NCBI RefSeq assembly: GCF_000262465.1 | Contig: NZ_CM001489.1 | Coordinates: 2,228,597 to 2,292,596 of the forward strand | Reading direction: 5' to 3' | DNA length: 64,000 bases | Source: Frankia sp. QA3 | GTDB taxonomy: Bacteria > Actinomycetota > Actinomycetes > Frankiales > Frankiaceae | In this document: positions 20,678-45,920 of the stretch, piece after piece | How positions within the stretch are numbered: position 1 is the stretch's first letter | Layout: each line of letters begins with the position of its first letter | Notes under the pieces: model-generated | Databases searched by the model: none | The model's input: only the letters and a program-made list of their open reading frames with translations | What the model was told of the DNA's origin: nothing | Made by a program: the position numbers and the translations under genes

Positions 20678-21892
20678 CTATCGCGCCGACGGTGAGAGGG
20701 TGCTGGGGATACGTGCGCCCGAGACGAGGCTGCGGTCGAGGTCCGCCACGGTCGCGGCGCCGAGCAGTGCCATCGCGCGGTCGAACTCCACGCGCAGCAG
20801 CTCAATCACCCGTAGGACACCGGCCTCGCTGCCCGCGGCGAGGCCGTACAGGTATGGCCGACCCACGAAGACACCCGCGGCGCCGAGGGCCAGCGCCTTG
20901 GCCACGTCGTTGCCTCGCCGGACACCTCCGTCGAGGAACACCGTGAGCCTGCGCGCCGCCGCGTCAACCACCTCCGGCAGGATATCGATGGTCGCGGGGA
21001 CGCCGTCCAGCTGCCGTCCGCCGTGGTTCGAGACCACGACACCGTCGACGCCCAGTTCGACGAGCCGATCGCACTCGTCCCCGCGCATCAGGCCCTTGAG
21101 GAGCAACGGGCCTTCCCACAACGACCGGATCCGCTCGACGTCCTTCCAGGTGACGCAGTCCGACGACGACGTGATCGTCGCTCGGGTCTGGTCGAGGCTC
21201 AGCGGGGACGGACTGCCGGGACGGCCGGCGCCGAGCTGGCCGCGCATGAAGTCGACTTTGCCGCGGATGAAGTCGGCTGCCCACGCCGGCTTGCCGGCCC
21301 CCTGCAGCAGCGTCCTGGGATGCGGCGGCCGACTCATGAGCCTGTTGCGCGTGTCGCGCTCACGGTTGCCCAGGACCGGCGTGTCGATGGTGATGGCCAG
21401 GGCCCGGTAACCTGCCGCCGCGATCCGCCGGACGAGGTTGTCGACCTCGGCGCGGTCGGGGGGCAGATAGAGCTGGTACCACAGCGTGCCGGTCGAGCAC
21501 GCGGCGACCTCCTCGAGCGGGAAGGCTGCCACGGTGCTCTGCATGTACACGATGTCCGCCCGCGCCGCGGCCCTCGCCACGGCGATCTCCGCGGACGATC
21601 GCGCGAGGCGACCCGCGCCCGTGGGTGCCAGCATGATCGGCATCGACAGCCGCTCACCGAACACGGTCGTCGAGAGGTCTCGCTCGGCGACGTCCGCGAG
21701 CGGCCGCGGGCGGAACTCGATGCGGTCGAACGCCGTGCGGTTACGCCGCAGCGACACCTCGTCGCCGGCTCCACCCTCCAGGGCGTCGAAGACCGCCCGG
21801 GGAAGCCTGCGGCGCGCCAGCTCCCGGAAGTCCTCGACATTGATTGCGCCCTGCACCCTCACGCCACGGACCTTTCGCTGTCGGCTGGTCAC
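20678..21892 (-). CDS. FMN-dependent alpha-hydroxy-acid oxidase/dehydrogenase
   Basis: The 404-residue TIM-barrel flavoprotein of the glycolate-oxidase/lactate-dehydrogenase/mandelate-oxidase family. The substrate and FMN motifs are in place: LAPTGAGRLARSSAEIAVAR near residue 88, WYQLYLPPDR (~137), AITIDTPVLGNRERD, LLLKGLMRGDECDRLVELGV, and the active-site VVSNHGGRQLDGVPAT with catalytic His and Arg. It oxidises an alpha-hydroxy acid to the alpha-keto acid. It is transcribed in the same direction as, and 65 bp downstream of, the A-T-TE gene, so it probably supplies or modifies that enzyme's substrate. GTG start with GGGAGA upstream. Confidence 0.9.
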   Translation of the reverse strand: MTSRQRKVRGVRVQGAINVEDFRELARRRLPRAVFDALEGGAGDEVSLRRNRTAFDRIEFRPRPLADVAERDLSTTVFGERLSMPIMLAPTGAGRLARSSAEIAVARAAARADIVYMQSTVAAFPLEEVAACSTGTLWYQLYLPPDRAEVDNLVRRIAAAGYRALAITIDTPVLGNRERDTRNRLMSRPPHPRTLLQGAGKPAWAADFIRGKVDFMRGQLGAGRPGSPSPLSLDQTRATITSSSDCVTWKDVERIRSLWEGPLLLKGLMRGDECDRLVELGVDGVVVSNHGGRQLDGVPATIDILPEVVDAAARRLTVFLDGGVRRGNDVAKALALGAAGVFVGRPYLYGLAAGSEAGVLRVIELLRVEFDRAMALLGAATVADLDRSLVSGARIPSTLSPSAR

Positions 21893-21956
21893 GGGATCGC
21901 GTTCTCCCGGTCGCCAGGAATGTCAGTCACTCCAGGAGCACCCACGCGGCAGCCGT

Positions 21957-24689
21957 TCAGGCCTGACGGGAGCCGGTGCGGCCGGCGAGGACCGCACGGA
22001 CGTCGGCCGCGATCTCGCTGACGACGGGTTCGCGGAGCACGGTGTCGTGGTCGCCACCCACGGTGCGGTAGGTCGCCTCGCCGGTCAGCAGCGGGCGCCA
22101 GGCATCCGTGCGGTGCGCAGAGGCGGTCGCCGTGTAGACCAGCGCCCGCCCGTTCCAGGGCCTGGGCCGGTACAACCTCGCGAGCACCCGCGATTGGTCG
22201 TAGAAGATGTCGTACTGGTTCATGCCCTTGAGTTGAACGACGCCAGCCAACGGGAGCTGGGCCACGCGCCAGGCCCGGCCGAGCAGGACCCGCGCGGCAG
22301 CCCCCGCGCGCGCCGGGCCCGTAGCCGATCCCCTCGCATGGTCCAAGGCTGGGGCCGGATTCGAGGTCGTGGTCGGGCCCCCTGGCAGCGCAGAGGGCAG
22401 CACCCCTCCCGCGAGGACGCTGGAGGACGTGTCGGGTGGGAAGCTGTCGATGAGGATGAGCAGTTCGACCTGCCCGCCGGCCTCGGTGAGAAGCCGTGCG
22501 GTTTCGAAGGCGACGAGGCCGCCGAAGGAGTGGCCAGCAAGGTGGTAGGGGCCGGTGGGTTGGAGTAGGCGCAGGGTGCGGGCGTGGCGGCGGGCGGCGG
22601 CGTGGATGGACCAGTCGGGCAGGCCGCGGTATTCGAGGCCGTGGGCCTGGATGCCGTAGACGGGACGTTCGCCGTCGAAGTGGCGGGCAAAGCCAAGCAT
22701 GCCGATGGCGAGGCCGCCGGCGCCGCAGAAGCAGAACAGGGGCCGGCCGCTGCCGGTGGTGCGCAGCGGGACGACGGTGGGGTGACGTAGGACGTCGGTA
22801 CCGGCATTGCGCAGGCGGGCGGTGAACTCGGCGACGGTGGGGGCGTCGGCGACGGTGGAGGTGGGGAGTTCGACACCGAGCTCGTCGGCGACCCTGGTGA
22901 GGAGCTCTTCGGCGATGAGGGAGTCGCCGCCGAGTTCGACGAAGTCGTCGTGGATACCGACATCGTCGAGGTGCAGGGCGGCGGCCCACACGCCGGCGAC
23001 GGCCTCTTCCCACTGGTCGCGGGGCGGGTTCTGGCCGGGTTTCGGACCGGCGGGGGCGGGGGGCAGGTTCAGTCGGTCGACCTTGCTACGGTCGGTCCTC
23101 GGTAGTGCGGCGACCAGCATGACGGTGGCCGGCACCATGTAGGACGGCAGCTTGGCCCGTAGCAGGCGCCTGATCGATGCCGGGGAGACCCGGGCGCCGG
23201 TCGCGGGGACGACGTAGGCGACCAGGCGGGTCCGCTCCGAGGTCCTGTCGGCCACGACGACGGCCTCGAGCACATCCGAGCTCGCCAGCAGGGCGGACTC
23301 GATTTCGATCGGCTCGACGAGGTATCCGCGGATCTTCACGGCCGCGTCGTTGCGGCCGACGACCCTGAGCTGGCCGCTGGCATCGAGGCGCCCGAGGTCT
23401 CCGGTGCGGTAGGTGGGCGTGCCGTCTGGCCCGACGCCGAACCGCGCTGCGCTCGCCTCCGGCGCCCGCCAGTAGCCCCCCGTGATGAAGCGGCCTGCCA
23501 CGACGACCTCACCCGTCTCACCGGGTGGCATCTCGATACCGTCCGGCGAGAGCACCCTCACCGCGACGTCGACCACCGGCCGCCCGGCCGGCATCACGCC
23601 GTCGGGTAGGTCGTCGTCCGACCAGATCGGGGCGCAGGTCGCCGTGCCAAGCTCCGAGGCTCCGTAGGAGACCAGGAAGGCCGCGGTCGGCGGTAGGTGG
23701 TGGCGGGCCAGCTCAACGTCGCGGGCGTAGATCGCCTCGCCAACCGACATGACGAATCGGAGATCGTCGAGCACCTCGTCCGGCTCGAGGCAGCCGAACA
23801 CGGTCCGGATCAGCGCCGGCGTGGCCACGATCCCGGCCGGCCGGGTGGTGCGCAGCCAGTCGGCCAGGTCGCGCACGCCGCGGACCCGCGGGTCGTACAT
23901 CTCGAGGGTGGTGCCGAAGACCAGGCCACCGACCAGCCGGTTCATCCCCGAGATGAAGGAGTAGGGCAGCAACAGCGGCAGACGGTCGCCCGGAACCAAC
24001 CGCATCACGTCCCGGACCTGGATGGCGTAGTGGATGCCCAGCAGGGCGCGGTGGTGCCACACGACACCCTTCGGTACTCCGGTCGACCCGGAGGTGAAGA
24101 TGAGCACTGCTGGATCGGTGTCGGCCCGGCGCGGCGCGGTCGACGCCACCCGGTCAGCCAGCGCCGGGGACCACTCGGCGACGCGCTCGTCGCCGACGTC
24201 GATCGTCTCCACGATCCCCTGCAGCGCGGCGGCAGTCTGCTGGTCGGCGGAGCCAGCCGGTCCGGTGACGCACACCGAGGCCCCTGCCAGTCCCACGACC
24301 TGAGCGAGGCGGTCGGTGGGACTCATACTGTCGAGGGGCACGCAGGGCCGGCCGCTCGCGATGACGCCCATGACGGCGGCGATCCCGCTCGCGCCGTGGG
24401 GCAACAGCACCGCGACGGGCGCGTCCGGGTCAGCCGCGGCGGGCTGGCGAAGGATGCGGTCGGCGACGACGTCCATCCAGGCGACGAGCTGGGCGAAGGT
24501 GACGGCACGATGTTCGTCGCGGACCGCCACGACGTCGCGGCAGACCGCAGCGACGGCGCGGAGCCGGTCGACGACGTTTCCGAACCGGTCGTCGGGACGC
24601 AGCGGCGGCGGCGCCGGCACCGCCTGGGTGAACTGGCCTTTCCTCACGTCAGCCAGGTTCAGTGGCCCAGGGACGGACGGTATTGTCAT
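21957..24689 (-). CDS. NRPS-like A-T-TE enzyme
   Basis: The 910-residue protein has adenylation, thiolation and thioesterase domains in order. A domain: A3 FTSGSTGVPKG (residues ~198-208), A5 YGASELG (~342), A7 YRTGDLGR (~427), A8 GRNDAAVKIRGYLVEP (~445), A10 Lys536 in DRSKVDR. T domain: LGGDSL with Ser590. TE domain: GHSFGGLVAFE (Ser721), Asp748 in LILIDSF, and His in VGGDHDTVL near the end. At A4, where amino-acid-activating domains show FDxS, the sequence is PYSFISGMNR, so the usual Asp is absent. With no condensation domain, it matches enzymes that dimerise or release aryl-keto acids. ATG at 24689 is preceded by GGGAGG. Confidence 0.9.
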   Translation of the reverse strand: MTIPSVPGPLNLADVRKGQFTQAVPAPPPLRPDDRFGNVVDRLRAVAAVCRDVVAVRDEHRAVTFAQLVAWMDVVADRILRQPAAADPDAPVAVLLPHGASGIAAVMGVIASGRPCVPLDSMSPTDRLAQVVGLAGASVCVTGPAGSADQQTAAALQGIVETIDVGDERVAEWSPALADRVASTAPRRADTDPAVLIFTSGSTGVPKGVVWHHRALLGIHYAIQVRDVMRLVPGDRLPLLLPYSFISGMNRLVGGLVFGTTLEMYDPRVRGVRDLADWLRTTRPAGIVATPALIRTVFGCLEPDEVLDDLRFVMSVGEAIYARDVELARHHLPPTAAFLVSYGASELGTATCAPIWSDDDLPDGVMPAGRPVVDVAVRVLSPDGIEMPPGETGEVVVAGRFITGGYWRAPEASAARFGVGPDGTPTYRTGDLGRLDASGQLRVVGRNDAAVKIRGYLVEPIEIESALLASSDVLEAVVVADRTSERTRLVAYVVPATGARVSPASIRRLLRAKLPSYMVPATVMLVAALPRTDRSKVDRLNLPPAPAGPKPGQNPPRDQWEEAVAGVWAAALHLDDVGIHDDFVELGGDSLIAEELLTRVADELGVELPTSTVADAPTVAEFTARLRNAGTDVLRHPTVVPLRTTGSGRPLFCFCGAGGLAIGMLGFARHFDGERPVYGIQAHGLEYRGLPDWSIHAAARRHARTLRLLQPTGPYHLAGHSFGGLVAFETARLLTEAGGQVELLILIDSFPPDTSSSVLAGGVLPSALPGGPTTTSNPAPALDHARGSATGPARAGAAARVLLGRAWRVAQLPLAGVVQLKGMNQYDIFYDQSRVLARLYRPRPWNGRALVYTATASAHRTDAWRPLLTGEATYRTVGGDHDTVLREPVVSEIAADVRAVLAGRTGSRQA

Positions 24690-25205
24690 GGCGCCTCCCG
24701 GGCGGGCAATGGTATGGGAGCCGTGACCGCGCTCCGGTCCGTTCAGATTTAACACGAACGACTTTGCGATCTACCACCCACGTCCGTAGTAATCATTAAC
24801 GTAAATGCATGGTTGCCATGTGCACCTGACGCCCGCGATACGGCTCGACACGAAGCGCCACTCCGTCTCCCTGCCGGCCGAGCCGGGTCCGTCCCGTCGA
24901 CACAGGGGCCGGTGGAAGCGGCCGGCATGATCGACCGATATGTCTTCGCACCGGCAGGCCGTCGGTACCGGTGTTGGAGTTCGCAACATTCCGGTGGTAC
25001 TGCGAGGCTCCGAAACAGGCAGGTAACCGGTGGCCCCGGTCGCCTCGAGCTGCTGCGCGATGCCTCTGTCTCGCTTCATTCCAAATAGCGCACCTTGAAT
25101 CCTGGCGGCGCCAGCTGGACTTCGTGCTGGCCGGATTCTCCGACCAGCGAACCAGCACGCAAAAACCATCCCCGACCAGCCGGCGGATGACCCGACTCGG
25201 GCCAT
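24690..25205. other. Gene-free stretch upstream of the A-T-TE gene
   Basis: This holds the promoter region of the A-T-TE gene (AT-rich around 24735-24800) and ~400 bp of sequence up to the IS left end with no convincing reading frame. The long minus-strand frame here has no protein-like features and a mixed composition. Confidence 0.5.
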
Positions 25206-25208
25206 TTA

Positions 25209-26075
25209 GACCTCGTTTCAGAATGATCCTTGGAGTTGCCGTAGGCAGATGATCGAGCAGGCCAGGCTCAGGAATGCCTGGTGGATGTCGACGCGGCGTT
25301 CCCAGCGGGTGCGCAGCCGGCGGAACTGGTGAAGCCAGCCGAGGGTGCGCTCGACAGGCCAGCGTTGCCGGCCCAGGCCGGAGCCATGCGGTGCTCCGCG
25401 ACGGGCGATGATCGGAGTGATCTGTCTGGCGGTGAGCCTGCGACGGTAGGCATCGTGATCATAGGCGCGGTCCGCGAGCAGGTAGCGGGGCCGGCGGCAT
25501 GGCCGTCCCCGGCGTCCACGGATCGGGGGGATCGCCTCGACAAGCGGGATGAGCTGAGTGACGTCGTGGCGGTTCCCGCCGGTCACGGTCGCGGCCAGCG
25601 GCACCCCGGACGCGTCGGTGATCACATGGTGTTTGCTGCCGGGATGGGCTCGGTTGACCGGGCTCGGACCCGTCGCGCCCCCCCTTTGAGCGCGTGGACG
25701 TGGGAGGAGTCCACCAGAGCCCGGTGCAGGTCGAGCCGTCCCGCGGCGTTGAGCTCGGCGAGCAGGTGTTCGTGCAGAGCTGTCCACACCCCGGCCGTGT
25801 GCCAGTCCCGCAGCCGGCGCCAGCAGGTCACCCCCGACACCCCGAACAGGCCCGGAGGCAGTTCCCTCCAGGGGACGTCGTTGCGCAGGACCCACAGGAT
25901 GCCCGCCAGCGCCGCCCGGTCGTCGACCGGCCGACGGCCCGGATAGCGGAACCGCCGCGGTCGGACCGGGACCAGCGGGGCCAGCCGGTCCCACAGTTCA
26001 TCGGTCAGCACGTCATCAGTCACACAGACAGGACCTACCCCGAGCAGGCCTGATCACTCATTGTGAAACGAGGTC
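25209..26075 (-). mobile_element. Intact IS5-family (IS427-like) insertion sequence, 867 bp
   Basis: The ends are inverted repeats beginning GACCTCGTTTCA with one mismatch-tolerant extension (left GAATGA, right CAATGA). TTA at 25206-25208 and TTA at 26076-26078 form a 3-bp target duplication. Inside are two overlapping minus-strand frames encoding a DDE transposase. The right end lies at the last codon of an IS1634-like remnant, so this IS landed in an older, already decaying element. Confidence 0.9.
25218..26023 (-). CDS. IS5-family transposase made by ribosomal frameshifting (OrfAB)
   Basis: OrfA begins at 26023 with the IS5/DUF4096 start (LTDELWDRLAPLVPVRPRRF, DVPWRELPPGLFGVSGVTCW, ALVDSSHVHALKGG) and reads on to 25622. 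OrfB in the next frame carries the rest of the DDE domain (KHHVITDASGVPLAATVTGG, RYLLADRAYDHDAYRRRL, WPVERTLGWLHQFRRLRTRW) and stops at 25218 within the left inverted repeat. The frames meet at AAAGGGGGGG (G7 at 25678-25684 on the complementary coordinates), a typical slippery run. The DDE acids appear to be present. The transposase cuts and pastes this IS. Confidence 0.88.
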
Positions 26076-27330: not shown

Positions 27331-28321
27331 CTAGTTGGGCACCTCCACGGACGCCCCGCGTGGGATGGGCGGGTTGTCGTCCTGTCCGGCGGCGTGAGCT
27401 TCGGCGGGCCGCATGAGGACGATGACGAGCAGGCCGGCGAGGATGCCGAGCGCCCCGGCGACGGCGAAGGTCGCCTGGACGCCACTCACCGCCGCCCCGT
27501 GCGCCGCGCTGTCGAGGAGCTGCCGCCCGGCGGACGGGGCGGTCTGGAGCAGGGCCGGTGTCCCTCCCCCGGCGATGGCGTGGGCGAGCTGTGCCGCGTC
27601 CGGGACACCGCGGGCGGACAGGCTGCCCTGCGCGCGGGCGGTGAAGACGCTGCCCGGCACGAGCTGCGGCCATCCGGCCGAGCCGTGGATGAGCGCGTAG
27701 GTGGCACCGGCCGCCGCGGCGGTGAAGCTGGCCATGCCCCCGCGGTCCAGCCTGGCGCGGGCCGGTGCGTGCGCGTCGACGAGCGTGGTGGCGCACAGCA
27801 GGATGGCGATGACGCTGACCGGCAGGTTGACGAAGAAGATCCAGCGCCAGGACGCACCCTCGGTGAGCAGTCCGCCGAGGATCGGGCCCACCGTGGCCGA
27901 GCCGCCCGCCACCGCACCCCAGACGCCGTAGGCGCTACCCCGGTCGCGGCCGGGGTAGGCGCTGTTGAGCAGGGCGAAGGTGGTCGCGAACATGGCCGCC
28001 GCCCCTACGCCCTGGACCGCGCGCATGGTGATCATGCATGCCCGGGTCGGGGGCCAGACCACACATCAGCGAGGAGGCCGCGAAGACCGCGAGCCCGCCG
28101 ATGTAGGCGCGACGGTGCCCGACGAGGTCGGCGATCGAGCCGGCGCCGAGCACCAGCGCGGCCAGCGCGAGGGCGTAGGCGTCGACGACCCACTGCAGCG
28201 CCCCGAAGGACGCGCCCAGGTCACCGGCCATGTCGGGCAGGGCGACGTTCACGATGGTGACGTCGATCAGCAGCATGAACGTGCCGAGACAGACGGTCGT
28301 CAGTGGCAGCCATTTACGCAT
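27331..28321 (-). pseudogene. EmrB/QacA-type MFS drug exporter, frameshifted and internally deleted
   Basis: From the start at 28321 the N-terminal half is good: LIDVTIVNVALPDMAGDLGA, WVVDAYALALAALVLGAGSI and ADLVGHRRAYIGGLAVFAAS. A frameshift near 28040 follows CGLAPDP. The next frame resumes with MRAVQGVGAAAMFATTFALL, GRDRGSAYGVWGAVAGGSAT and GPILGGLLTEGASWRWIFFV. After GWPQLV the sequence jumps to the very last helix (LGILAGLLVIVLMR), so helices of the C-terminal half are missing. It is divergent from a LysR gene that was presumably its regulator. Confidence 0.75.
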
Positions 28322-28430: not shown

Positions 28431-29324
28431 ATGGATCTGAGGCAGCTGGAATACTTTGTCGCGGTCGCCGAGGAGCAGAACTTCACCCGGGCGGCCGAAC
28501 GGGTGCACATCAGCCAGTCCGGGGTCAGCGCCCAGATCCGCCAGCTGGAACGGGAACTCGGCGCCGAGCTGTTCGACCGGTCGGCGCGCATCGTCACCCT
28601 CACCGTCGCGGGCAAGGCCGCGCTCGAACACGCCCGCGTCGCCCTCACCGCCGCCGGGGCGGTGAGCCAGGCGGTGGGCGAGGTGACCGGGCTGATCCGC
28701 GGCCGGCTCGCCGTCGGCATGGTCACCGGCTGCACCATCACGCCGCTGTTCGACGCCCTCGCCGCCTTTCACCGGTCGCATCCCGGCGTGGAGGTCTCGC
28801 TGCTGGAGGACAGCTCCGACCGCCTCGCCGAGGGGGTGCGCGCCGGCGCCCTCGACCTCGCTCTCATCGGAACCGCGACCGCCTCCGTCGAGGGGCTGGA
28901 CGGGCTGACCGTCGTCAGCGAGCGGCTGGTCGCGGCGGTGCCGCCCGGCCACCCCCTGACGCGGCGGCGCCGGGTCACCCTGCGGGACCTGGAGTCCTAC
29001 CCGATCGTCTGCATGCCTGCCGGCACCGGCCTGCGCGCCGTGTTCGACCAGGCCTGCGCCGCGCAGCACCGGCGACCGGCGATCGCCCTGCAGGCCAGCG
29101 CCGCGGACGCCCTCGCCGACCTCGCCGCCCGCGGGCTCGGGGTCGCGATCCTCAGCACCTCGATGGCCGTCGGGTACCGTGACCGGCTCGCCGCCCGCAT
29201 CATCGACGACGTCGAGGCACCCGCCATGCTCGCCCTGATCTGGCGCGGCGGACCCGGTCCGGCGGTGCGCGAGGCGCTCGTGCACCTGCGCCGGGCGTTC
29301 ACCGGGCCGGCGACCCCGGGGTGA
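28431..29324 (+). CDS. LysR-family transcriptional regulator
   Basis: The 297-residue protein is of normal LTTR length. Winged helix: LEYFVAVAEEQNFTRAAERV and HISQSGVSAQIRQLERELGA (residues ~6-45). Effector domain: GMVTGCTITPLFDALAAFHR (~96), LALIGTATASVEGL and PIVCMPAGTGLRAVFD. It is complete, with no odd residues. It is divergent from the broken MFS exporter across 109 bp, so its ancestral target is dead and it may now be an orphan or regulate elsewhere. The P450 gene downstream starts 370 bp away with its own palindrome, making control by this LTTR uncertain. Confidence 0.9.
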   Translation: MDLRQLEYFVAVAEEQNFTRAAERVHISQSGVSAQIRQLERELGAELFDRSARIVTLTVAGKAALEHARVALTAAGAVSQAVGEVTGLIRGRLAVGMVTGCTITPLFDALAAFHRSHPGVEVSLLEDSSDRLAEGVRAGALDLALIGTATASVEGLDGLTVVSERLVAAVPPGHPLTRRRRVTLRDLESYPIVCMPAGTGLRAVFDQACAAQHRRPAIALQASAADALADLAARGLGVAILSTSMAVGYRDRLAARIIDDVEAPAMLALIWRGGPGPAVREALVHLRRAFTGPATPG

Positions 29325-29615
29325 CGCGTCTTGGCGCCGTCGGCGCCGTCGGCGCAGTCGCCGACGTGACCGGCCGGGACGGAGCGCGAGGTGGCAGATG
29401 CCGGCGGCGCGCGGCGGCTCGCCGAGATCGAGAAGCTGACGGCCGCGACCAGACCCGACCGGCACGTCCGATCAATGGCACCGGTGCGATTACCACCAAG
29501 GTGTCCCTGGGCAGGAACGGTCGGACCACCGGCAACGCCGGCGGTCTTCGCAGTTCAGCGCGGGATTCCGGCGCCCGGGGAACCGGGGGAGCTCACCTCC
29601 GGCAACCCACCCGAA
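29325..29615. other. Gene-free stretch upstream of P450
   Basis: This is about 290 bp without a convincing gene. It contains a short GGCGCCGTC direct-repeat run just after the LysR stop (29333-29352) and GC-rich sequence with no recognisable product. Confidence 0.5.
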
Positions 29616-29641
29616 CGAAGTGATAGCGAACTTTCACTTCG
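29616..29641 (+). promoter_or_regulatory. Inverted repeat, candidate operator of the P450-ferredoxin unit
   Basis: CGAAGTGA (29616-29623) and TCACTTCG (29634-29641) form perfect 8-bp arms with a 10-bp AT-containing centre, 55 bp before the P450 start. The size and position suit a dimeric repressor (TetR or similar), but no matching regulator gene is adjacent. Confidence 0.5.
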
Positions 29642-29695
29642 GTGGTACCGTCGTCGGCGTCACGTTCAGCGCGATCGGCGAAAGGCGGAGAGGTG

Positions 29696-30898
29696 ATGGC
29701 CGAAGTATCGGAAATACCACTGCACATGCGGCGCGCGCAGTTCGATCCGATCGAGGAGCTCGCCCAGGTACGCGACAGCGCGGGCATCGCTGCGGTGGTG
29801 ACGCCTTTCGGCGTTCCCGCCCATCTGGTGAGCCGTTATGACGACGTCCGCGAGGTCCTTTCCGATTCGGCGCGGTTCAGCACCGCCGATCGGCGCGCAC
29901 TCACGCCCCCCGACGCCGCCGGACTGACCGAGGAGCAGTACGCGCGCGCCCGGGTGGGAAATCTTCTCTCGTACGACCCGCCGGATCACACCCGGCTGCG
30001 GCGGATGCTCACGCCGGAATTCACCGTGCGCCGGATGCGCGCTCTCGAGCCGCGGATCGTCGAGATCGTCGAGTCGGCCCTCGACGACGTGGAACGGGCC
30101 GGCAAACCCGCCGACCTGGTCTCGACGTTCGCCCTGCCGGTGCCCTCCCTGGTCATCTGCGAGCTGCTCGGCGTGCCGTACGCCGACCGGGCCGCCTTCC
30201 AGCGACGCACCGTCGACCAGCTCGACGCCTCCCACCCACCCGAGCGGCGCCTCGCCCTGCAGCAGGCCAGCCGCGAGTACATGGCCACCCTCGTCGCGCG
30301 GGCGCGCAGGGACCCGGGCGAGGACATCCTCGGGATGCTCGTGCGGGAGCACGGCGACGACGTGAGCGCCGAGGAACTCGTCGGCATCGCCTCCCTGCTG
30401 CTGCTCGCCGGCCACGAGACGACCGCGAACATGCTGGGTCTGGGCACCCTGGCCCTGCTGCGCCACCCCGACCAGCTGGCCATGGTCCGCGACGACCCGG
30501 CCCGCGTCGAACCGGCCGTCGAGGAACTGCTGCGCTGGCTGTCCATCGTCCACTCCGGCATCCCGCGCACGGCGACGACGGAGGTGACGATCGCCGGGAA
30601 CACCATCGCGGCGGGGGAACACATCGTCCTCGCGCTGCCCGGGGCGAACCGAGATCCGGCGCTCGTCGACGATCCGGATCGCCTCGACATCACCCGGGAG
30701 CCCACCGGGCACGTCGCATTCGGTCACGGTCTGCATCACTGCCTCGGCGCGCCGCTGGCCCGCCTGGAGCTGCGGATCGCCTACCCTGCGTTGCTGCGGC
30801 GCTTCCCCGGCCTCGCGCTCGCCGTGCCGTACGAGCAGATCGCCTTCCGGCCCTACTCGGTGATCCACGGACTGCAGGCGCTGCCCATCACGTGGTGA
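29696..30898 (+). CDS. Cytochrome P450
   Basis: The 400-residue soluble bacterial P450 is complete. The I-helix AGHETT is at residues 238-243 (acid-alcohol pair E/T), the ExxR motif is in EELLRW (~277-282), and the heme loop FGHGLHHCLGAPLAR has the axial Cys349. The ATG at 29696 follows GGAGAGG. It is followed 62 bp later by a one-domain ferredoxin, the usual redox partner; no reductase gene is linked. The substrate cannot be read from the sequence. The ELLGVPYADR segment is also present in the second P450 at 60085, so the two are related. Confidence 0.95.
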   Translation: MAEVSEIPLHMRRAQFDPIEELAQVRDSAGIAAVVTPFGVPAHLVSRYDDVREVLSDSARFSTADRRALTPPDAAGLTEEQYARARVGNLLSYDPPDHTRLRRMLTPEFTVRRMRALEPRIVEIVESALDDVERAGKPADLVSTFALPVPSLVICELLGVPYADRAAFQRRTVDQLDASHPPERRLALQQASREYMATLVARARRDPGEDILGMLVREHGDDVSAEELVGIASLLLLAGHETTANMLGLGTLALLRHPDQLAMVRDDPARVEPAVEELLRWLSIVHSGIPRTATTEVTIAGNTIAAGEHIVLALPGANRDPALVDDPDRLDITREPTGHVAFGHGLHHCLGAPLARLELRIAYPALLRRFPGLALAVPYEQIAFRPYSVIHGLQALPITW

Positions 30899-36811: not shown

Positions 36812-37672
36812 CTATGCCTTCCGGCCGACGCCACCGTAGGCGCTGACCTGGGCGTCGGTCAGGCCTGCCGGGATTGTGCCGTCCGGGCGCCAGCGGTGCA
36901 CCAGCTGCACCCCCGGCTCGATCAGGTCCAGACCGGTGAACAGGCCCTCGACCTCGGCCTGGCTGCGTAGCCGGGTGGGAATGCCGCGCTGCCGGTAGGC
37001 CTCGGCCGCCGCCGCCACCGCCGGGTCGACGTCGCCGGTGCCGTGGCTGAGGACGAGGTAGCTGCCGGACGGCAACTCGTCGAGCAGCCGGCGCAGGATG
37101 CCGTGCGGGTCGTCGGAGTCGGGAATGAAGTGGAAGATGGACATCAGGGACAGGGCGACCGGCCGGCTGAGATCGAGGGTGGCGCGCAGTTCGGGGGCGG
37201 CCAGGATGCGCTCGGGGTCGCGCAGGTCGGCGTCGAGGTAGACCGTGGCGCCCTGGGGGCTGCTCGTCAGCAGGGCGCGGGCGTGCGTGAGCACGATCGG
37301 GTCGTTGTCGGCGTAGACGACCCGCGCGTCCGGGGCGATGCTCTGGACGGTCTCGTGCAGGTTCGGGGAGGTGGGGATGCCGGTGCCGATGTCGAGGAAC
37401 TGGCGGATCCCGACCTCGCCGGCCAGGAAGCGCACCACCCGGGTCATGAACGCTCGGCTCGACCGGGCCGCGGTCGCGACGTTCGGGGACGCCGTCAGGG
37501 CCTGCTCGGCGGCCTCCCGGTCGGCGGGAAAATTGTCCTTCCCGCCGAGGTAGTAGTCGTACATCCGGGCCGAATGCGGCTGGTCGGTCTTGAGATCCAC
37601 CGGGCTGCGCTCCTCGACGAGACTCTGCCACCACCGTCCGCCCGCCAGGTCCCGCTCGCCTTCGCCCGTCAC
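36812..37672 (-). CDS. SAM-dependent methyltransferase, Methyltransf_19 (ex-DUF574), copy 2
   Basis: 286 residues, closely related to the copies at 2127 and 45015. It shows DLKTDQPHSARMYDYYLGGK, FLDIGTGIPTSPNLHE, VVYADNDPIVLTHARALL, the ALSLMSIFHFIPD step and QLVHRWRPDG. I start it at the GTG at 37672 rather than an upstream ATG at 37756, because the G-rich ribosome site (37682-37687) and the conserved promoter element lie between those two codons. The first ~105 bp of coding sequence are almost identical to copy 3, which suggests recent duplication or gene conversion. Confidence 0.92.
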   Translation of the reverse strand: MTGEGERDLAGGRWWQSLVEERSPVDLKTDQPHSARMYDYYLGGKDNFPADREAAEQALTASPNVATAARSSRAFMTRVVRFLAGEVGIRQFLDIGTGIPTSPNLHETVQSIAPDARVVYADNDPIVLTHARALLTSSPQGATVYLDADLRDPERILAAPELRATLDLSRPVALSLMSIFHFIPDSDDPHGILRRLLDELPSGSYLVLSHGTGDVDPAVAAAAEAYRQRGIPTRLRSQAEVEGLFTGLDLIEPGVQLVHRWRPDGTIPAGLTDAQVSAYGGVGRKA

Positions 37673-37681
37673 CGCGGCCAG

Positions 37682-37719
37682 CCCCCTCATATCAGGACGA
37701 ACACCTTGAATCACCCTAA
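37682..37719 (-). promoter_or_regulatory. Conserved promoter/leader of methyltransferase copy 2
   Basis: Read on the minus strand: TTAGGGTGATTC (37719-37708), 8 nt, CGTC (37699-37696), 8 nt, AGGGGG (37687-37682), then the GTG at 37672. Same order and first spacing as at copies 1 and 3. Confidence 0.6.
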
Positions 37720-37894
37720 CGGCAGCCGCTCCTCGTTCCCCGACGGATGTCTTCACCGACCACGAACCGATTCCGTCCCCCGACGCCGCTAGGCCGACTG
37801 GCCAGCCCGTTCGCCCGTGAACACGCAGGCAGCACGCTTCCGGTTGGGTTGCCGCAGTGACCTGCGTGGGCAGCGCCGCGGGTCAGGGCGCCAG

Positions 37895-45014: not shown

Positions 45015-45872
45015 TCAGACTTTTCGGCCGACCGCGCCGTAGTTGCTGACCTCGAGGTCGGTCAGGCCGGTCGCGGTGCCGTCCGGGCGCCAGCGGTGGA
45101 CGACCTGTACACCCGGCTCGACCAGCTCCAGGCCGTCGAAGAACCGGGCGACCTGTGCGCGGGTACGCGGCTGAAGGGGGATGCCGCGGCTGCGGTAGGT
45201 CTCGGCGACCTGCTCCCACGCCGGGTCCTGGTCGGCGGTGATGTGGGAGAGGGCGAGGTAGCTGCCGGCGGGAAGCGCGTCGACGAGGCTGCGGACGATG
45301 CCGTAGGGGTCGTCGGAGTCTGGGATGAAGTGGAACAGCGCGATGAGGGACAGCGCGACCGGCTTCGTCGCGTCGAGGGTCTCGCGCAGCTCCGAGGAGG
45401 TCAGGATGCTCTCGACGTCGCGGACGTCGACGTCGAGGTAGGCGGTGGCGCCCTGCGGGGTGCTGGTGAGCAGGGCGCGGGCGTGGGTGAGGACGATCGG
45501 GTCGTTGTCCGCATATACCACGCGCGCGTCGGGGACGATGCTCTGGGCGATCTCGTGCAGGTTCGGCGAGGTGGGGATGCCGGTGCCGATGTCGAGGAAT
45601 TGCCGGACGCCGACCTCGCCGGCCAGGAAGCGGACCGTCCGGGCCAGGAACGCCCGGTTTTCCCGGGCCACGACCCGCAGGTTCGGGAACGCGGCCAGCG
45701 ACTGCTCGGCGGCCTCCCGGTCAGCGGGGAAGTTGTCCTTCCCGCCGAGGAAGTAGTCGTACATCCGGGCCGAATGCGGCTGGTCGGTCTTGAGATCCAC
45801 CGGGCTGCGCTCCTCGACGAGACTCTGCCACCACCGCTCGCCCGCCAGGTCCCGCTCGCCTGCATCCGTCAC
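45015..45872 (-). CDS. SAM-dependent methyltransferase, Methyltransf_19 (ex-DUF574), copy 3
   Basis: 285 residues from the GTG at 45872. DLKTDQPHSARMYDYFLGGK, FLDIGTGIPTSPNLHE, VVYADNDPIVLTHARALL, ALSLIALFHFIPD and QVVHRWRPDG show the family in full. The start is set by GGGGGG at 45882-45888 and the matched GTG of copies 1 and 2; an in-frame ATG at 45893 lies upstream of that ribosome site and is rejected. A TetR gene lies upstream in the same direction. The cell role is unknown; members are numerous in mycelial actinomycetes. Confidence 0.92.
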   Translation of the reverse strand: MTDAGERDLAGERWWQSLVEERSPVDLKTDQPHSARMYDYFLGGKDNFPADREAAEQSLAAFPNLRVVARENRAFLARTVRFLAGEVGVRQFLDIGTGIPTSPNLHEIAQSIVPDARVVYADNDPIVLTHARALLTSTPQGATAYLDVDVRDVESILTSSELRETLDATKPVALSLIALFHFIPDSDDPYGIVRSLVDALPAGSYLALSHITADQDPAWEQVAETYRSRGIPLQPRTRAQVARFFDGLELVEPGVQVVHRWRPDGTATGLTDLEVSNYGAVGRKV

Positions 45873-45880
45873 CGCGGCCA

Positions 45881-45920
45881 GCCCCCCTCGCATCTGGACG
45901 ATTCCGTCGAATCACCCTAT
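45881..45920 (-). promoter_or_regulatory. Conserved promoter/leader of methyltransferase copy 3
   Basis: Minus strand: ATAGGGTGATTC (45920-45909), 8 nt, CGTC (45900-45897), 7 nt, GAGGGGGGC (45889-45881). It overlaps the last codons of the upstream TetR gene, which ends at 45917. Confidence 0.6.

Follow-up and report, generated by a model that had tools for sequence, protein, structure and literature searches.

A conserved two-gene unit of Frankia that pairs a free-standing A-T-TE synthetase with an FMN-dependent alpha-hydroxy-acid oxidase and may handle a keto or hydroxy acid

The question raised by this locus is on which acid a synthetase made of adenylation, carrier and thioesterase domains (A-T-TE) and a neighbouring FMN-dependent alpha-hydroxy-acid oxidase (HAO) act, and what they could produce together. 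The window, that is the whole 64,000-nucleotide stretch of DNA that was analysed, comprises bases 2228597-2292596 of a 7.59 Mb single-contig Frankia genome, and the features of interest are collected in Table 1. Pfam analysis of the 932-aa synthetase ORF gave AMP-binding, AMP-binding_C, PP-binding and Thioesterase in that order and no condensation domain. The HAO gene was found 64 bp downstream of the synthetase gene, both being on the minus strand. Therefore, the initial annotation, which had described a free-standing A-T-TE enzyme devoid of a condensation domain and an HAO gene about 65 bp downstream in the same direction, was confirmed on both counts. Either of two starts is possible for the synthetase, that of the longest ORF or an in-frame ATG at 24689, 22 codons inside it. 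The HAO orthologs align from about residue 10 and, as a consequence, the true start of this gene may be slightly downstream of that given. Our literature search yielded no description of this synthetase/HAO pair or of these Frankia genes. The unit, which is carried by several nitrogen-fixing Frankia, probably makes a small molecule. In enzymes of the A-T-TE type one protein alone converts one acid into a finished small molecule, and for this reason the two-gene unit should be easy to express and test.

Table 1. Position of the synthetase and oxidase features in the window
Feature	Position	Strand	Size and evidence
A-T-TE synthetase	21957..24755	-	932 aa, longest ORF; Pfam domains, orthologs in 7 other genomes, dN/dS 0.29-0.40
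Adenylation domain, residues 67-565	23061..24557	-	PF00501 and PF13193; AlphaFold model
A4 segment PYSFISGMNR, residues 264-273	23937..23966	-	GrsA alignments; Ile268 in the GrsA Asp235 column
Carrier (T) domain, residues 585-648	22812..23003	-	PF00550; GGDS motif with Ser612
Thioesterase domain, from residue 671	21957..22745	-	PF00975; NRPS TE profile match; model; triad Ser743/Asp770/His903
FMN-dependent alpha-hydroxy-acid oxidase	20678..21892	-	404 aa; PF01070 437 bits, catalytic residues kept, orthologs in 8 other genomes

Other genes were observed on the upstream side of the pair. An IS5-like DDE transposase in two overlapping frames (window 25218-26023, minus strand) lies about 460 bp upstream of the synthetase ORF. 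An MFS transporter (window 27331-28321, minus strand) is split over two overlapping frames by an apparent frameshift and adjoins a LysR regulator and a cytochrome P450 (window 28431-30898, plus strand). The window also holds two copies of the S-adenosyl methyltransferase family PF04672, at 36812-37756 and 45015-45893 (minus strand).

The synthetase looks intact, with its active-site residues in place. Ser612 of the carrier, Ser743, Asp770 and His903 of the thioesterase (TE) and Lys558 of the A domain were invariant across the family alignment. The AlphaFold model of the A domain had a mean pLDDT of 86.6, and its best matches were NRPS A-domain folds. Using as reference the GrsA sequence, checked against PDB 1amu, the column of Asp235 was found to be occupied by Ile in the window synthetase and in all 7 orthologs. 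The reading of the A4 segment as lacking the amino-acid Asp, for which the initial annotation had proposed an alignment to GrsA, was thus borne out. The specificity code of the window synthetase is ISNVMVSTA plus Lys517, i.e., ISNVMVSTAK; among the orthologs, Thr replaces the last Ala in three and Leu replaces Met in one. In addition, the A5 motif YGPTE has become YGASE(L), a point absent from that annotation, and the proline is Ala in all 8 orthologs. The score against the amino-acid adenylation profile TIGR01733 was 253.7 bits, below the curated cut-off of 317.4. Judging by these features, it is well supported that the window A domain is not a standard amino-acid A domain, and a keto acid is a fair guess for its substrate.

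The two changes are those expected if the domain resembles that of StsA, the only solved alpha-keto-acid A domain, in which Ile takes the place of the Asp, Met takes that of the conserved proline, and M415P abolishes activity (PMC11253843). Consistently, LgrA activates keto acids slightly better when it carries P483M or P483A (PMC11253843); P483 is the proline of YGPTE, as counted on the profile alignment. The StsA-type marks, a hydrophobic residue at Asp235 and no A5 proline, are present in the window synthetase but are not exclusive to keto acids, since hydroxy-acid A domains, and also McyG, whose substrate is Phe, can likewise have a small or aliphatic residue at 235 (PMC11253843). Furthermore, Asp235 is missing in the whole actinobacterial family of this synthetase, where Ile, Ala, Ser, His or Gly stands there and the codes are varied. 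Replacement of Asp235 by Ile and loss of the A5 proline fit any acid devoid of an amino group and, as a consequence, do not choose between a keto and a hydroxy acid. The marks of the aryl-acid A domains (DhbE type), Asn235 and the A5 motif QQVxFMAEGL (PMC11253843), were absent, the window synthetase having Ile and YGASEL instead.

For the TE, a single-sequence search against PDB gave no match. A profile built from 17 family TEs found 7crn as best PDB match, which at 153 bits scored much higher than EntF and the remaining hits; this entry is an NRPS thioesterase whose description gives it two functions, epimerisation and cyclisation. The AlphaFold model (pLDDT 82.4), in which TE residues 127-155 are unreliable, again ranked 7crn first in PDB. 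A distinctive dimerase was considered for this domain and rejected, because both profile and model matched ordinary NRPS/PKS TEs. The matches to 7crn and EntF identify it as a type I TE and do not indicate its release chemistry.

The FMN_dh domain (PF01070) covers residues 26-390 of the HAO. Its residues were numbered on glycolate oxidase. On this numbering the HAO keeps Tyr129, Asp157, Arg164, Lys230, His254 and Arg257, so that it appears to be an active enzyme with its catalytic residues in place. However, Tyr24 is replaced by Ala and Trp108 by Val in all 9 HAO orthologs. According to Stenberg (1995), as cited in PMC10153336, Tyr24 and Trp108 are substrate-binding and specificity residues, and their replacement suggests that the substrate of the HAO may not be a small hydroxy acid in free form. 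The pre-mycofactocin synthase MftD has Ala at the position of Tyr24 and Asn at that of Arg257, and 4-hydroxymandelate oxidase has Phe at the former. The substrate of 4-hydroxymandelate oxidase is a free acid and, therefore, the Ala by itself does not establish that the substrate lacks a free carboxylate. The HAO itself was discarded as MftD (282 bits against a TIGR03966 cut-off of 470.85, a profile with which a paralog from another Frankia genome scores 716 bits), as FMN L-lactate dehydrogenase LldD (280.3 bits against an NF033901 cut-off of 550) and as L-lactate oxidase (below the family cut-off). It has an extended variable loop at residues about 190 to 240. In one ortholog (G005, L069) the loop before the active-site Lys bears a Gly-Ala-rich low-complexity expansion, and its length varies among orthologs.

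The pair was found in 8 genomes of two genera. The synthetase orthologs, 81-92% identical, come from 4 other genomes of the same genus and 3 of a second genus in the family, and in 7/7 the HAO gene is adjacent. Several gene sets without relation to one another make up the flanks (M13 peptidase with glycosyltransferase; SNF2 helicase with solute-binding protein; dehydrogenases with a CoA-ligase-like protein and a methyltransferase), only the synthetase and the HAO being common to all the orthologous loci. A larger cluster around the pair was consequently rejected, and across these loci no transaminase or aryl pathway gene was conserved near it. A chance neighbourhood is likewise excluded by the conservation of the pair in 8 genomes amid unrelated flanks. 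Purifying selection acts on both genes, the dN/dS being 0.29-0.40 in the synthetase and 0.21-0.36 in the HAO. The two-gene pairing suggested by the initial annotation is thus a real unit with linked inheritance. Outside the family, no ortholog of this synthetase clade was detected at E <= 1e-150 or 1e-120; weaker relatives in Kineosporia, Modestobacter, Rhodococcus, Glaciihabitans and others are single genes with varying neighbours and without an HAO within the fetched flanks. HAO orthologs were found in 8 other genomes. In one of these (G032; L091:9297-10749, G032:C109) the HAO (82%) remains and the synthetase is gone, and about 110 bp connect what was the upstream region of the synthetase with the HAO. 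This HAO is open over 392 aa with a dN/dS of 0.39 against the window copy, indicating either that the HAO can persist alone or that the loss of the synthetase is recent.

In the phylogenetic tree the HAO-linked synthetases group in a single clade (SH-aLRT 100). Its sister comprises 5 Frankiaceae A-T-TE proteins that are 47-51% identical to them and whose codes begin with Ile-Ser (235/236). A luciferase-like flavin monooxygenase gene is directly downstream in two of these five loci, within a few kb in two more, and was not seen in the fifth. The window genome has, at about 4.80 Mb, a T-TE remnant of such a sister unit (L047:7387-8685, G000:C1) that has lost the A domain and whose carrier motif is GGEA, without Ser; it still adjoins the luciferase-like monooxygenase gene. 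The association with a flavoenzyme therefore recurs, although the enzyme families are unrelated. A second A-T-TE paralog of the window genome (L044:9109-11997; G000:C1:3607231-3609954) has Ala at 235 and the code AATQTCWSLK. It has counterparts in every searched genome of the genus, being apparently a core enzyme, and in the loci read it adjoins DUF4230, CHASE3/SpoIIE and ABC transporter genes.

The explanation that we prefer, and to which we give an even chance, is a self-contained Frankia biosynthetic unit in which the A-T-TE enzyme is dedicated to a keto or hydroxy acid and the HAO oxidises the same acyl unit. Its foundation, as read from the genomes, comprises the intact domains, the loss of Asp235 and of the A5 proline, the HAO catalytic residues and the linked inheritance. 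The substrate class, the order of the steps and the product of the unit are what we infer. The A domain would adenylate not an amino acid but a carboxylic acid with an alpha-keto or alpha-hydroxy group, and the activated acid would be loaded onto the carrier domain. Release by the TE would follow, either through a simple transfer or through the joining of two acyl units into a product of the lactone, furanone or quinone type. The HAO would convert the alpha-CH(OH) of the same acyl unit into alpha-C=O; this could take place ahead of activation or later, with the intermediate bound or already released. The StsA and LgrA data, taken with the Ile and Ala of the 8 orthologs, support a keto or hydroxy unit, and the recurring flavoenzyme beside the Ile-Ser sister clade was also counted in favour. 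On the other hand, domains that activate acids of neither the keto nor the hydroxy type likewise lack Asp235 and the A5 proline, and the G032 genome keeps the HAO without the synthetase. The replacement of Tyr24 by Ala and of Trp108 by Val is an argument against a simple hydroxy acid that is small and free, although in 4-hydroxymandelate oxidase the Tyr24 position is occupied by Phe. Moreover, the keto acids used by the characterised aryl-keto-acid dimerases come from amino acids (PMC9047271, PMC9379647), so an HAO is neither needed nor an expected partner.

This last point also weighs, mildly, against a possible route in which the HAO supplies a free aryl-alpha-keto acid and the A-T-TE enzyme, like RalA, AtrA or EchA, couples two such units into a furanone or quinone. 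The layout is indeed that of the dimerases, the fungal keto-acid A-T-TE enzymes also have an aliphatic residue, Val, at the Asp235 position (PMC10316625), and the aliphatic Met or Leu at code position 5 of the Frankia orthologs may be compared with the Ile or Val of the polyporic acid synthetases (PMC10316625). However, ISNVMVSTAK has so far been matched with no characterised aryl-keto-acid code, aryl pathway and transaminase genes are not conserved near the pair, and the HAO pocket is unlike that of small-acid oxidases, also a mild argument; we regard this route as rather unlikely. In a search for a bacterial keto-acid dimerase through limonene-epoxide-hydrolase neighbours in 295 genomes taken as Streptomyces, an A-T-TE gene adjoined none of the 7 matches. 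Action of the HAO after activation, on a carrier-bound alpha-hydroxyacyl unit or on the released ester or lactone, would imply that the A domain activates a hydroxy acid, and hydroxy-acid A domains do have small aliphatic residues at 235 (PMC11253843). It is also favoured by the Ala at the position of Tyr24 in 9/9 orthologs, as in MftD. The substrate of MftD lacks an alpha-hydroxy carboxylate, but the HAO keeps Arg257 where MftD has Asn, 4-hydroxymandelate oxidase uses its free acid with Phe in place of Tyr24, and we know of no enzyme of the HAO family proven to act on a carrier-bound substrate. We consider such late action unlikely; if it did occur, it would be a new role for the HAO family. 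Finally, the A domain could take another acid, fatty or aryl, for hydrolysis or transfer by the TE, with the HAO serving general hydroxy-acid metabolism. The non-specific nature of the missing Asp235, its absence from an entire family with varied codes and the persistence of the HAO in G032 agree with this, but the tight pairing in 8 genomes whose flanks are otherwise unrelated, and YGASEL in place of the aryl-acid A5 motif, make it quite improbable. As an extension of the preferred explanation, Frankia could have a family of A-T-TE plus flavoenzyme units with an interchangeable redox partner, in which the HAO has evolved for a carrier-bound or released acyl product and a new class of small molecules is made; this we deem improbable.

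Among known systems, the aryl-alpha-keto-acid dimerases RalA, AtrA, TdiA, MicA, EchA and DatA, compared here by their descriptions, share with the window synthetase the free-standing A-T-TE layout without condensation domain and the aliphatic residue replacing Asp235, whereas the HAO partner, the code and the lack of aryl supply genes are features of the Frankia unit. The alpha-keto-acid A domains of depsipeptide synthetases of the StsA/CesA type likewise have Ile at the Asp235 position and no A5 proline. Unlike the Frankia enzyme, they are set in modules with ketoreductase and condensation domains, whereas in Frankia a TE follows the carrier and a stand-alone flavin oxidase serves as redox partner. 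The Frankiaceae sister paralogs have the same Ile at 235 and a flavoenzyme neighbour, but this is of an unrelated family and adjacent only in part of the clade. As regards the HAO, it belongs with glycolate oxidase, mandelate dehydrogenase and 4-hydroxymandelate oxidase to the FMN_dh family and has all their catalytic residues, and it differs from them by Ala and Val at Tyr24 and Trp108, by the extended loop and by the pairing of its gene with that of a synthetase.
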